Source of the DNA: Intrasporangiaceae bacterium URHB0013
Lineage (GTDB): Bacteria; Actinomycetota; Actinomycetes; Actinomycetales; Dermatophilaceae
DNA length: 64,000 nt
Direction: 5' to 3'
Assembly (NCBI GenBank): GCA_000620545.1
Contig: KK211150.1
Span: 186,001 to 250,000, forward strand
Part shown: positions 36,208 through 40,256 of the stretch, one piece after another
How the letters are laid out: every line of letters starts with the position of its first letter
How positions within the stretch are numbered: the stretch's first letter is position 1
Position numbers and translations under genes: made by a program
The notes under the pieces: model-generated
Told to the model about the DNA's origin: nothing
Database searches by the model: none
Seen by the model: only the letters and a program-made list of their open reading frames with translations

Positions 36208-37160
36208 TCCTCACCTTCACGCCGAACCCGGCCCTCGACATCACGTATGCCGTTCCCTTCGTCGCCCTCGGCGACTCTCACCGCGTCGCCTCCGTGAGCG
36301 AACGCGCCGGCGGCAAGGGCCTCAACGTCGCGGCCGTCCTCACCACCATGGGGCGCAGGGCCGTCGCGGTCGCGCCCGTCGGCGAGACGGATGTCGACGT
36401 CTTCGCCTCCGACCTCGGCGCACGTCGGGTGCCGCACCGCGTCGTCCCGTCCCCGTGCCCGACCCGTCGCTCGGTGGCGGTCGTCGAGGCGAGTGGTCGG
36501 GTGACGCTGCTCAACGAGCCCGGCATCGGCCAGTCCCAGCGGGTCTGGGACCGCATCGCCGACGAGATCGCCTCGCTTGCCCCGGAGGCGTCGACGCTGA
36601 CCGTGTCGGGCAGCTTCCCCCCGGGGACCGATCCCGACCTGGTCCGCCGGATCACGCGGCTCGCGCACGAGAATGGTCTGCGGGTCGTCCTCGACGTCAG
36701 CGGCGTCCACCTGTCGCGCGCGCTCGCACTCGCTCCCGACCTGGTCAAGCCCAACCGCGTCGAGGCCGCGCAGACCCTGACCGGGCTGGGCCGCGGCGAG
36801 GTGCCGTCGGTCCCCGGTGCGGCACGGGCGCTGGTCCTGGCGGGCGCCCGCGCCGCCCTCATCAGTGACGGCACGAACGGCCTCGTCCTGGTGCACGACG
36901 ACGTCGCCCTTCGAGCCCACCTGCCGCGCCCGCTCTCGGGCAACCCGACCGGGGCGGGCGATGCCCTGACGGCCTCCCTCGCCGCCGACCTCGACGGCGA
37001 CGGCGACCTACCGCGGGGACGGGAGGCGTGGGCCTCCGTGCTGCGACGGGGGGTCGCCTGGTCGGCCGCCGCCGTCCTCCAACCCGTTGCGGGCGCCGTC
37101 GATCCCGCCGACGTCGACCGACTGCTCCCCACCGTCGAGATCGAGGAGATGCGTCCGTGA
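36204..37160 (+). CDS. PfkB-family hexose-phosphate kinase (1-phosphofructokinase/tagatose-6-phosphate kinase type)
   Basis: Ribokinase-fold kinase of 318 residues. MILTFTPNPALDITY is the standard opening of the FruK/LacC/AgaZ-type subgroup; AGGKGLNVA follows, and the C-terminal anion-hole motif is NPTGAGDAL with the catalytic Asp. With an aldolase immediately downstream (GTGA overlap) it should make the bisphosphate that the aldolase splits: fructose-1,6- or tagatose-1,6-bisphosphate. Members that use 1- or 6-phosphates cannot be told apart by eye. Confidence 0.9.
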   Translation: MILTFTPNPALDITYAVPFVALGDSHRVASVSERAGGKGLNVAAVLTTMGRRAVAVAPVGETDVDVFASDLGARRVPHRVVPSPCPTRRSVAVVEASGRVTLLNEPGIGQSQRVWDRIADEIASLAPEASTLTVSGSFPPGTDPDLVRRITRLAHENGLRVVLDVSGVHLSRALALAPDLVKPNRVEAAQTLTGLGRGEVPSVPGAARALVLAGARAALISDGTNGLVLVHDDVALRAHLPRPLSGNPTGAGDALTASLAADLDGDGDLPRGREAWASVLRRGVAWSAAAVLQPVAGAVDPADVDRLLPTVEIEEMRP

Positions 37161-37990
37161 CCCGCTTCGCCCTGACGCCCGTGCTCGCCGAGGCGTCGGC
37201 CGCCGGCCGTGCCGTCGCGGCCTTCAACGTCATCCAGATCGAGCACGCCGAGGCCTATGCCGCCGCGGCCGAGCGGGTCGGCCTTCCCGTCGTCATGCAG
37301 ATCTCCGAGAACTGCGTGCGCTACCACGGCTCGCTTGCCCCGATCGCGGCGGCGACGCTCGCGATCGCCGACGCGTGCACCATGCCCGTGGTCGTGCACC
37401 TCGACCATGCCGAGGACGTCTCGCTCGTCGAGGAGGCGGTCCGACTCGGCCTCACGTCGGTGATGTTCGACGGCTCGACCCTCGCCGACGACGAGAACCG
37501 CGCCGTGACCCGTCGCGTCGTCGCGCTGTGCGGGTCGGCTGGGATCAGCGTCGAGGCCGAGCTCGGCGAGGTCGGCGGCAAGGACGGCGTCCACGCGCCC
37601 GGCGTGCGCACCGACCCGGACGACGCAGCCCGGTTCGTCGCCGACACGGGCGTCGACGCGCTCGCAGTCGCCGTCGGCAGCAGCCACGCGATGACCGACC
37701 GGACGGCCGAGCTCGACACGGATCTCATTGCGGCGCTTCGGAGCTCGGTTCCGGTGCCACTCGTGCTGCACGGCTCGTCCGGGGTGCCGGACAGTGGACT
37801 CGTCGCAGCCGTGGGGGCCGGCATGACGAAGGTCAACATCGCGACGCACCTCAACCAGGTGTTCACCCGGGCGATGACGGCGCGGCTCGAGGCGTCACCG
37901 ACCGTCGACACGAGGACGTACCTCGGCGCGGCGCGCGACGCCGTCACCGACGAGGCCGCCCGCCTCCTGGCCCTCCTCGCCCTCCACTGA
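37157..37990 (+). CDS. Class II fructose/tagatose-bisphosphate aldolase
   Basis: Zinc-dependent aldolase of 277 residues. Family motifs are AFNVIQIEHAEA, VVHLDHAED with the catalytic Asp and zinc His, EAELGEVGGKDG, and LHGSSGVPD plus KVNIATHLNQ for phosphate binding. It cleaves a ketose bisphosphate to dihydroxyacetone phosphate and glyceraldehyde-3-phosphate. Length and motifs suit the GatY/KbaY/FbaA group. GTG start at 37157 overlaps the kinase stop. The 32-bp repeat array begins 15 nt after the stop. Confidence 0.9.
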   Translation: MTRFALTPVLAEASAAGRAVAAFNVIQIEHAEAYAAAAERVGLPVVMQISENCVRYHGSLAPIAAATLAIADACTMPVVVHLDHAEDVSLVEEAVRLGLTSVMFDGSTLADDENRAVTRRVVALCGSAGISVEAELGEVGGKDGVHAPGVRTDPDDAARFVADTGVDALAVAVGSSHAMTDRTAELDTDLIAALRSSVPVPLVLHGSSGVPDSGLVAAVGAGMTKVNIATHLNQVFTRAMTARLEASPTVDTRTYLGAARDAVTDEAARLLALLALH

Positions 37991-38005
37991 CCCCCTCTCT
38001 CCCCC

Positions 38006-38219
38006 GTCGAAAGGCCAAAGTTCGCGGTGCCTGACCCGTCGAAAGGCCAAAGTGCGCGGTCAGGCACCCGTCGAAAGGCCAAAGTTCGCGGTGCCTAACC
38101 CGTCGAAAGGCCAAAGTTCGCGGTGCCTAACCCGTCGAGAGGCCAAAGTTCGCGGTGCCTAACCCGTCGAGAGGCCATTGTTTGCGGTGCGCGGGGCGTC
38201 GACAGGGCAGCTCATGAAC
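38006..38219 (+). repeat. Direct array of a 32-bp tandem repeat (six copies plus one decayed)
   Basis: A 22-bp core beginning GTCGAAAGGCCAAAG and ending TTCGCGG starts at 38006, 38038, 38070, 38102, 38134 and 38166, each exactly 32 bp apart, with a 10-bp linker mostly TGCCTAACCC or TGCCTGACCC. A seventh, badly decayed unit starts at 38198. Copies 1, 3 and 4 are identical in the core; copy 2 has G for T, copies 5-6 have GAGAGG, and copy 6 has further changes. There is no room for a gene. Linkers are conserved rather than variable. Confidence 0.95.
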
Positions 38220-38240
38220 CGTCGGTCCCGCCCCAGCTGC

Positions 38241-38422
38241 CCGGGGGTCTTGGCCACTCAACGGTGGCGAGGCCGCGAAGTTTGGCCTTTCGACGGTGGC
38301 TAGGCCGCGCAGTTTGGCCTCTCGACGGTGGCTGGGCCGCGAAGTTTGGCCTCTCGACGGTGGCGAGGCCGCGAAGTTTGGCCTTTCGACTGCGGGGAGG
38401 CCGCGAAGTTTGGCCTTTCGAC
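38241..38422 (-). repeat. Inverted array of the same 32-bp repeat (five copies plus one decayed)
   Basis: Reverse-complement cores (CCGCGAAGTTTGGCC then TTTCGAC) start at 38273, 38305, 38337, 38369 and 38401, again every 32 bp, with a decayed unit at 38241. Read on the minus strand the core has AAACTTCG where the direct array has AAAGTTCG, and the linkers are a different type (CCTCGCCACC-like). The last linker contains the stop codon of the SIS gene. The two arrays point toward each other across 38220-38240. Confidence 0.95.
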
Positions 38423-38425
38423 GGG

Positions 38426-39325
38426 TCAGGTGAGGACGATGCTGCGGGTGAGGTTGCGGGGCGCGTCGGGGTCGAGACCGGCGGCATCGGCCTTGCCGAG
38501 GCACAGGCGGTGCAGTCGCACGAGGTCGGCGAGCGGGTCGATGTCTCGGTGCTCGAAGCGGGCGCCGGTCGCGCGCACCTGCTCGGGCAGTCCCTCGGGC
38601 ACCTCGCCGAAGGCCCACACGGCCCGGCCGGGGGCAGCGATGCTGATCGGGCCGTGGCGGTACTCCATGGCCGGGTAGGACTCCGACCAGAACTGCGCCG
38701 ACTCGCGCAGCTTGAGGGCAGCCTCGTTGGCGATGCCGTTGGACCAGCCGCGACCCAGGAAGCTGATCTGCTCCGCCAGCGCGAGGTGGCCGTATGCCGA
38801 CGACGGGTCCTCGGCGAGGATCGCGCGCGCCTGCTCGGCCACCGGGGCCAGGTCGTCGCCGAGCGACGCGCGCAGCAGTGCCAGGGCGGTCGTGGCGAAG
38901 CGGGTCTGCACGACGCTCTGCTCGTCGACGTCGTCCAGCAGCACGGTGGCCGCCGAGCGCTCGGCTACCGGCGTGCCCGCCGTCGCGACGAGCGACACGT
39001 GCGGCGTGCCCGAGGCGCGCAGCTCCTCGACGACTGCCATGACCTCGCTCGTGGTGCCGGAGCGGCTGATGACGACGACACGGTCGTAGCCGCGCGCCAG
39101 CTGGTGCTCGGAGGCGGCATACGCGTCCGTGAGGCCCTGACCCAGCTCCTCGCGCCGGCCGGCATACGCCTGGCCCATGAACCACGACGTGCCGCAGCCG
39201 ATTGTCGCGACCCGCTCTCCGGGGCGCGGGAGGTGCCGCGCCACGTCGCCGAGGCGCGTGACGACACGGTCCCAGTCGTCCGGCTGCGTGGCGATCTCCT
39301 GAGCGAGGTGAGTGGTCTGCGGCAT
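38426..39325 (-). CDS. SIS-domain sugar-phosphate isomerase/deaminase (AgaS-like)
   Basis: A 299-residue protein with two SIS domains. ATIGCGTSWFMGQAY and VVISRSGTTSEV are the phosphosugar-binding signatures, followed later by FLGRGWSNGIANEAALKL and EYRHGPIS, as in AgaS and the isomerase half of GlmS. AgaS deaminates/isomerises galactosamine-6-phosphate to tagatose-6-phosphate, which would feed the PfkB kinase and aldolase on the other strand. There is no glutaminase domain. ATG at 39325. Divergent from the DeoR gene; its stop lies in the last repeat linker. Confidence 0.88.
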   Translation of the reverse strand: MPQTTHLAQEIATQPDDWDRVVTRLGDVARHLPRPGERVATIGCGTSWFMGQAYAGRREELGQGLTDAYAASEHQLARGYDRVVVISRSGTTSEVMAVVEELRASGTPHVSLVATAGTPVAERSAATVLLDDVDEQSVVQTRFATTALALLRASLGDDLAPVAEQARAILAEDPSSAYGHLALAEQISFLGRGWSNGIANEAALKLRESAQFWSESYPAMEYRHGPISIAAPGRAVWAFGEVPEGLPEQVRATGARFEHRDIDPLADLVRLHRLCLGKADAAGLDPDAPRNLTRSIVLT

Positions 39326-39419
39326 GGTGGCTCCCGACGGTTCGACGGTGCCACGGCGGATGCCGTGGCAGAGTTGACTGTGTGTGCGCGAAACACAGCG
39401 TAAACGCGCAGAGATACAC

Positions 39420-40256
39420 ATGTCCATTGCTCGAACTGCGCGGTATCGTCAGCCCGTGACCGAAGAGAGTGATCTCGCCCGCAACCGCGCCAGCCGCTGG
39501 TCGATCATGCTCGACCGTCTCGCGACGACCGGCCGTCTGGGCGTCGGCGAGGCAGCCGAGCTGCTCGCCGTGAGCGAGGCCACCATCCGCCGCGACTTCT
39601 CCGAGCTCGCCAAGCGCCAGCTCGTGGCCCGCAACCATGGCGGCGTCGTCGCCACCTCGGTCGCCTACGAGCTGCCCTACCGCTATCGCAGTGGCATGGC
39701 CGATGACGACCGGGGCCGCGTGGCCGAGGCGGCCGCCGCGCTCGTGCAGCCGGGCCAGGTCATCGGGCTCAACGGTGGCACGACGACGACGGCGACGTCG
39801 CGGGCCATCACGGCGCGCGAGGACCTCGCGATCGACGGTGAGATCACCATCGTCACCAATGCGCTGAACATCGCGACGGAGGCGGTGCTCCGGCCCCACG
39901 TCCAGTGCGTGTCGCTCGGTGGTGTCGCCCGGCCCGAGTCCTACGAGGTCACCGGGCCGCTCGCCACGCTCGTGCTCCAGCAGCTGTGGCTCGACGTCGC
40001 CATCGTCGGCGTCAACGGTCTCTCGGCCCGGGAGGGTGCGACGTGCCGGCACGAGGAGGAGGCCGCCATCATCCGGACGATGATCGATCGCTCGAAGCAG
40101 GTCATCTGCGTGGCCACCGGTGCCAAACTCGGAGTGCGCACCTTCGCCTCGATCTGTCCTGCCGAGCGGATCGACCACCTCGTCACTACCGTGGGCGCAG
40201 ACCGCGACGAGATCGAGGCTCTGCGTGAGGCCGGTGTCCAGATCCACCAGGTCTAG
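39420..40256 (+). CDS. DeoR-family transcriptional regulator (AgaR-like)
   Basis: Repressor with an N-terminal winged helix (LGVGEAAELLAVSEATIRRD, then FSELAKRQLVARNHGG) and the DeoR C-terminal sensor domain that binds a phosphosugar (GLNGGTTTTA, TNALNIA, VGVNGLS, ATGAKLG). Its place between the SIS gene and the ABC importer makes it the likely controller of the cluster. ATG at 39420 is taken as the start; GTG 39456 is an alternative, and the frame is open from 39384. The intergenic 39326-39419 contains GC-flanked repeats (GCGCGAAACACAGCG) that may be its own operator. Confidence 0.88.
   Translation: MSIARTARYRQPVTEESDLARNRASRWSIMLDRLATTGRLGVGEAAELLAVSEATIRRDFSELAKRQLVARNHGGVVATSVAYELPYRYRSGMADDDRGRVAEAAAALVQPGQVIGLNGGTTTTATSRAITAREDLAIDGEITIVTNALNIATEAVLRPHVQCVSLGGVARPESYEVTGPLATLVLQQLWLDVAIVGVNGLSAREGATCRHEEEAAIIRTMIDRSKQVICVATGAKLGVRTFASICPAERIDHLVTTVGADRDEIEALREAGVQIHQV

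Follow-up and report, generated by a model that had tools for sequence, protein, structure and literature searches.

Facing 32-bp repeat arrays between convergent genes and a dispersed REP-like element family in Terrabacter and related genera

Introduction

Why should two convergent genes each be followed by a tandem array of the same repeat, the two arrays facing one another across the intergenic space? The question is raised by a locus in the stretch of 64,000 nucleotides analysed here (the window), at which an aldolase gene and a SIS-domain gene converge (Table 1). REP-like repeats are well known in Proteobacteria, and their function and spreading are still debated. None of the titles and abstract openings listed in searches of the open-access literature describes the repeat family reported here; the source genome is placed in Terrabacter because its SIS protein matches named Terrabacter at 81-94%.

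Table 1. Features of the array locus, in positions of the window
Feature	Position	Strand	Remarks
Class-II fructose-bisphosphate aldolase family gene	37157..37990	+	PF01116, 3.1e-79; gene caller
SIS-domain gene	38426..39427	-	PF01380, 5.6e-18; start uncertain, 39325 per gene caller
Array of seven 32-bp units	38006..38229	+	sense to aldolase gene; seventh unit degenerate
Array of six 32-bp units	38231..38422	-	sense to SIS gene; innermost unit degenerate
Best-kept module	38006..38026	+	12-bp head GTCGARAGGCCA and 9-bp tail AASTTCGCG
Degenerate centre	38198..38262	none

Results

A 21-bp module, GTCGARAGGCCAAASTTCGCG, and an 11-bp linker after it make up each 32-bp unit. In the + array, units start at 38006, 38038, 38070, 38102, 38134, 38166 and 38198, with 0, 1, 0, 0, 0, 3 and 10 mismatches to the 21-mer, and the - units end at 38422, 38390, 38358, 38326, 38294 and 38262, with 0, 0, 0, 1, 0 and 7. 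A sequence-only reading had described seven and six units in register that decay toward the centre, and both statements hold: all steps are exactly 32 bp, and the mismatches are most numerous in the innermost unit of either arm, which is recognised mainly via its first 12 bp. The arms also differ systematically, as had been stated, with AAAGTTCG against AAACTTCG and arm-specific linkers. Elsewhere in the window the closest match to the 21-mer, out of about 63,500 places on the two strands, differs from it at 5 positions, which excludes a chance origin of the arrays. The + array begins after the aldolase stop at 37990, and the SIS stop codon TGA (38428-38426) is followed by CCC and then by GTCGA, so that it lies 3 nt ahead of the first GTCGA. 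The arms are only 71-79% complementary, since pairing comes from the 21-mer common to both, and most of the linker sequence (11 bp per unit) stays unpaired. A 41-bp palindrome, present at nine other sites of the source genome, is absent from the centre of the window locus. The + linkers 38027-38037 and 38059-38069 are reverse complements of one another (GGTGCCTGACC and GGTCAGGCACC on the + strand), amounting to a short inversion within the array, and the tail variants AAGTT and AACTT are likewise reverse complements.

Across the source genome, the 12-bp head GTCGARAGGCCA had 166 exact matches, compared with 3 for the reversed control; the 23-mer CGTCGARAGGCCAAASTTCGCGG had 180 (79 + 101) with up to 3 mismatches, and its reversed control 0. 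The head copies are dispersed, tied to gene ends, and grouped into about 30 clusters (counted among the matches listed), most of which contain facing pairs; they are neither scattered at random in both orientations nor, as described below, absent from all relatives. Placement and array structure were analysed in the window and 22 further stretches, 23 loci in all. In the fetched loci the tandem step is 32 bp, with a few exceptions of 30, 31 or 33 bp or a doubled step. In two-armed clusters the + units always precede the - units, L015 comprising two such elements; L011, L012 and L022 are one-armed, and a one-sided or split arrangement begins 4 of the 23 loci. One element pair of the source genome (G000, contig C9, 500994-501088; L220, L221) has a different head, GTCGAGTGSSCA, the inner bases of which need no complementarity between the arms.

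The elements are concentrated at the 3' ends of genes, above all between convergent ones. Gaps were classified with a simple home-made codon-usage gene caller, which is rough (the dehydrogenase call at L017 overruns a probable convergent gene), and were compared with other gaps of at least 40 bp. The 27 element-bearing gaps of the 23 loci comprised 16 convergent, 10 tandem and 1 divergent, compared with 23, 91 and 49 among 163 other gaps (convergent 16/27 versus 23/163, Fisher p 1.5e-6). The corresponding numbers for T. tumescens were 13, 9 and 1 versus 10, 29 and 24 (13/23 versus 10/63, p 5.5e-4), and four other genomes pooled gave 17/32 versus 11/122 (p 2e-7). It should be noted that the 23 convergent gaps without an element are the majority of the convergent gaps seen in the loci of the source genome. 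The supposed sense orientation after stop codons was borne out: of the 42 gene 3' ends that adjoin an element in the source genome, 39 have the outermost copy in sense, as do 33 of 35 in T. tumescens, and the same prevails in other genera (G048 11/16, G025 8/10, G049 8/8, G178 12/13). The first head follows the stop by 2-70 nt at 41 of the 42 ends of the source genome and by 244 nt at the remaining one. Within called genes, the home-made caller placed 0 of 203 motifs in the source genome, 0 of 93 in T. tumescens and 7 of 17 in G049.

Exceptions to the gene-end rule include elements between hutH and hutU (L018), between nuoH and nuoI (L027), and between ftsK and an ion-channel gene (L020). At L019 (6346-7709), and also at L168, the arms flank an alpha/beta-hydrolase gene, an arrangement common to the source genome and T. 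tumescens; the neighbours are on the promoter side, and at L019 a divergent ligase gene stands outside the arms. An insertion sequence between split arrays was considered and rejected, the 1.1-kb middle of L019 being the hydrolase gene. In three species about 1.1 kb adjacent to greA separates a + from a - arm (L024 6628-7787, L165 4395-5516, L177 4200-5320), and the open frame between the arms of L024 has no Pfam match. No functional theme of the flanking genes was apparent among the 28 proteins scanned.

Presence in relatives was confirmed by elements at orthologous sites in other Terrabacter. All nine Terrabacter genomes contain exact heads, numbering 166, 36, 14, 103, 52, 64, 8, 98 and 98, with 3, 3, 8, 2, 4, 2, 2, 5 and 2 reversed controls, respectively. 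The 14 heads of G002 and the 8 of G006 (controls 8 and 2) include few beyond chance, and thus Terrabacter can manage with almost none. In T. tumescens, 13 of the 18 fetched element loci are orthologous to element loci of the source genome. The site that corresponds to the window locus bears elements with other tails in T. tumescens, Ter38 and Root181 and another head dialect in Intrasporangium flavum, while in T. aerolatus the two stops are separated by a 5-bp spacer. Eight Terrabacter genomes yielded the nuoH-nuoI locus: four contain an array and G002 a remnant, and nothing recognisable is present in G004, G006 and G008 (L027 6184-6451; L222-L229). Array length varies as well, in agreement with the expansion that had been suggested: one orthologous site has 8 units in the source genome (L030) and 1 in T. 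tumescens (L163).

Beyond Terrabacter, the relaxed palindrome GTCGANNGNNCA...TGNNCNNTCGAC has matches in 33 of 186 genomes of the family, its control never exceeding 3 per genome, and is present in at least 4 copies in 18 genomes of 8 genera, with a maximum of 72. The head has dialects, GTCGARAGGCCA in Terrabacter, GTCGAGTGGYCA in G024-G026, GTCGAGTGCYCA in G048 and GTCGAGTGTGCA in G049; in G026 two, GTCGAGTGGCCA and GTCGARAGGGCA, occur within the one genome. A stricter pattern, which is narrower than the relaxed palindrome and would miss some dialects, matched 1 of 394 class-wide genomes, namely the source genome; the 386 genomes sampled from the rest of the class gave no match, and the seven other family members in this sample are not motif-rich.

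Within Terrabacter, the parts of the unit evolve differently. Head identity is 0.92, whether loci are compared within one genome or across several. Tail identity is 0.82 within the same arm, 0.71 between loci of the source genome and 0.70 between loci of Root181, and falls to 0.51 when orthologous loci are compared across species (0.31 versus Root181, 0.59 versus T. tumescens); the tails of T. tumescens are not coherent, with 0.48 between its own loci. A genome-wide tail dialect is thus clear in the source genome and Root181, but not in T. tumescens. Linker identities are 0.65, 0.45 and 0.40, the first within the same arm and the second between loci. The tail and linker values indicate that arrays homogenise locally and turn over between species, and the linker values agree with the sequence-only reading that each arm was homogenised separately.

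Head spacings cluster near steps of about 10.5 bp, albeit not in every genome and orientation. Direct neighbours are spaced 30-33 bp in 80 of 96 cases; facing neighbours of the same set are spaced 27-32 in 53 and 39-41 in 29 of 93, a set whose loci from other genera were chosen by a facing-pair search that limits their facing spacings to the searched range. Among the matches listed for seven other genomes, facing heads are 29-32 bp apart in 31 of 70 pairs and 39-42 in 35, only 4 lying elsewhere within the searched range of 16-46. Direct and back-to-back pairs among the matches listed have peaks at 22-23, 31-33 and 42-45 (phase strength R 0.50, n 91, and R 0.51, n 72, respectively); for direct neighbours in G024-G026 the main peaks are 22 and 32. 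Also among the matches listed, back-to-back pairs of G024 have no phase (R 0.06, n 12), its direct repeats are broad (28-38), and the facing pairs of G047 are not significant (p 0.09). The offsets in other genera were read by eye and collapsed per cluster, and exclude Terrabacter rows, G051, G052, rows of genomes with one or two matches, and single rows of G025 (contig C28) and G026 (C2 and C89). The spacing suggests that double-stranded DNA is read from one face, but the clusters are looser than strict phasing, and descent from two or a few element sizes could mimic it. In an Intrasporangium MAG (L055 3941-4204), 13 units with a WTCGAGAGTGCA-type head follow one another in tandem at exactly 21 bp, directly after the same SIS gene as at the window locus. 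G047 contains 200 close direct head pairs (116 + 84), the most of any genome in the direct-pair search.

The very long imperfect hairpin that had been proposed for the two arms was reproduced as a fold: the read-through RNA of the window locus reaches -291.5 kcal/mol (z -13.7), which is explained by the module common to both arms. As a function, it found no support. In the outer units of 20 loci of the source genome, linkers of the same locus match at 0.396, compared with 0.431 when permuted, and the outer tails of T. tumescens have a weak same-locus excess (52/2000). Two arms from one locus are thus no better matched than arms drawn from separate loci, so that the long hairpin looks like a by-product, and a selected one is rejected for the outer units in the source genome. 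A single 32-bp unit folds no better than its shuffles (z 0.56 and -0.67); two single units form an outer helix of 3+4 pairs with a 9-nt loop and a 5-pair inner stem with a 9-nt loop. The centres of certain loci behave differently. At nine sites of the source genome, exact heads face each other across a gap within the range searched; two centres of 41 nt were tested and gave folding energies of -34.5 and -36.9 kcal/mol (z about -9.5 and -10). The centres in Terrabacter form almost perfect palindromes, and their variable tails covary between the arms (0.66 versus 0.40, 0/500 permutations, 34 centres). In G048, however, the arms differ more than permuted arms do (5/500 and 17/500 as low); pairs whose arms do not mirror each other argue against a required hairpin there. 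No arm-to-arm excess was found in G025 or G178, and that of G049 is weak (45/500). Between 37900 and 38500 of the window, 0 terminator-like sites were found (shuffles 0.6), and the T-rich tail after a GC-rich hairpin that marks an intrinsic terminator is absent from the window copy.

PF01797 (RAYT / Y1 transposase) was detected in 4 of the 186 family genomes and is absent from all 18 genomes with four or more palindromes. The strict palindrome had 0 matches in viral contigs, and blastn of the array against plasmids gave no match. Five Rfam matches up to E 5 between 37900 and 38500 were rejected, all being far below their gathering scores. In contrast to CRISPR, the 'spacers' between the repeats are near-identical within an arm.

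Discussion

We give an even chance to the reading that tandem expansion of one member of a dispersed REP/BIME-like family produced the window arrays and that their modules are phased sites for a binding protein. The family is a dispersed, extragenic, inverted repeat that occurs in Terrabacter and in some further genera of the Intrasporangiaceae or Dermatophilaceae. Its working unit would be the 21-bp module of about two helical turns, with a near-invariant 12-bp head and a lineage-variable 9-bp tail. Modules are directed away from the stop codon and face each other in pairs across the intergenic space; the lengths of centre and linkers would turn the heads to similar sides of the helix. Each module may be bound as double-stranded DNA by a putative, probably oligomerising protein, the specificity of which would drift with the lineage. 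The bound array might mark the 3' ends of genes or insulate them, chiefly where two genes converge, by blocking readthrough or by buffering supercoiling, as proposed for BIMEs, and arrays might grow longer and become locally uniform through slippage or unequal exchange, 32 bp at a time. In favour of this reading are the excess of heads over controls, their bias to convergent gaps and closeness to stop codons, their absence from called genes of the source genome and T. tumescens, the clustered spacings, the tails common to unlinked loci, and the unmatched arms of G048. Against it stand the looseness of the spacing, the incoherent tails of T. tumescens, the covarying Terrabacter centres, the few heads of G002 and G006, the convergent gaps without an element, and the motifs within called genes of G049. 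Among the roles that the sequence-only reading had listed, protein binding fits best, with a putative binder, and the long hairpin as a function found no support.

The main rival, which we think possible though unlikely, holds that facing modules fold once transcribed and act as a bidirectional terminator or a 3' mRNA stabiliser, like some REPs. It is supported by the nine sites with facing exact heads, the stable fold of the two tested centres, the covariation of arms in Terrabacter centres, which favours a hairpin there, and the sense position just past stop codons; it fits the window locus poorly, which has neither a palindromic centre nor a terminator-like site, and it is opposed by the outer units (no same-locus excess in the source genome, a weak one in T. 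tumescens tails), by the lack of arm covariation in G048 and G178, and by the elements between nuoH and nuoI and between hutH and hutU. An element inside the nuo operon argues against a strict terminator, and the termination role envisaged for the arrays gains no support from this or from the window copy, which lacks a terminator-like site. Less probable still is a selfish or relic REP-like element, spread by a putative transposase acting in trans and tolerated where it is least harmful, with arrays arising by passive slippage. The patchy occupancy of nuoH-nuoI and the 5-bp spacer of T. aerolatus speak for such an element, any insert is safest in a convergent gap, and REPs of the CGTC type likewise have no dedicated transposase in the account of PMC3733652. 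On the other side, RAYT is missing from every motif-rich genome, modules are shared between loci and linkers are not, which simple copying of whole elements would not produce, and the spacings are clustered.

Two further explanations have very little in their favour. An isolated slippage event that expanded some local sequence and has no wider meaning would agree with the internal homogenisation of the arms and with copy numbers that vary between species, but is highly improbable given about 30 clusters in the source genome with a common head, period and placement and the elements of relatives; it is refuted for the family, and slippage is a likely way for single arrays to lengthen. The faintest prospect is given to a tag for natural transformation akin to DNA uptake sequences. 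Inverted pairs at gene ends are known for these sequences too. A short 12-bp core with dialects between genera recalls those of Neisseriaceae (PMC3630211), but the 166 exact copies in the source genome are clustered and lie outside called genes, and uptake sequences are described as numbering hundreds to thousands (PMC2346458).

Returning to phased protein-binding sites, a bolder version would extend them to the whole family, with one co-evolving binder and a protein roadblock or topological buffer, not an RNA hairpin, at convergent 3' ends; we regard this as doubtful. The occupied and empty nuoH-nuoI alleles provide a natural contrast within a respiratory operon, and as these are culturable, non-pathogenic soil bacteria, reading at the DNA versus the RNA level and the effect on neighbouring genes become testable. 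The interest of the family lies in its being REP-like in an actinobacterial group, without RAYT, with clustered spacings across dialects, and with occupancy and length that vary between close relatives.

REP/BIME elements are described as extragenic, present in tens to hundreds of copies, arranged in inverted pairs and clusters, located just 3' of genes, often between convergent genes, and having lineage-specific variants (PMC3733652, PMC2817692). The Terrabacter family is also extragenic, has many copies in inverted pairs and clusters at gene ends, and is lineage-specific. As to the palindromic unit of 20-40 bp usual for REPs, palindromes of 41 bp occur at the centre of several sites of the source genome, and the single 32-bp unit folds like its shuffles. 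The family differs in that its arms are direct tandem repeats at a fixed 32 bp, its 21-bp module by itself appears to form no stable stem, RAYT is lacking, its heads cluster near helical steps, and it was found here in one actinobacterial family. RAYT-mobilised REPs carry GTAG, whereas Terrabacter units begin with CGTCGA. In 320 of 372 Terrabacter units the GTC is preceded by C, so that CGTC stands at one end, as in the second REP superfamily, and the family thus has the tag of that superfamily without its stem, and neither GTAG nor RAYT. CGTC-tagged REPs (Di Nocera et al. 2013) also share the facing dimers, the lack of a dedicated transposase, a position less than 20 bp away from the 3' end in the examples given, and the occurrence of identical-arm and mixed-arm dimers. 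Their stem is 8-9 bp long, its first two pairs being AT, and closes on a loop of 4-5 nt, a structure that Terrabacter units do not form, and the main text of that paper names five phyla without using the word Actinobacteria (PMC3733652).

The uptake sequences of Neisseriaceae also have a short core with lineage dialects (PMC3630211), but occur within genes as well (PMC2346458), whereas Terrabacter copies are far fewer, arrayed, and outside called genes in the source genome. An intrinsic bidirectional terminator would likewise lie between convergent stops, and some Terrabacter sites have a strong central hairpin; the differences are the window copy without a T-rich tail, the copy in the nuo operon, and the conservation of sequence and not just of a stem. 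The proposed roadblock arrays would have their counterpart in kind in the protein-bound terminator arrays of eukaryotic rDNA.
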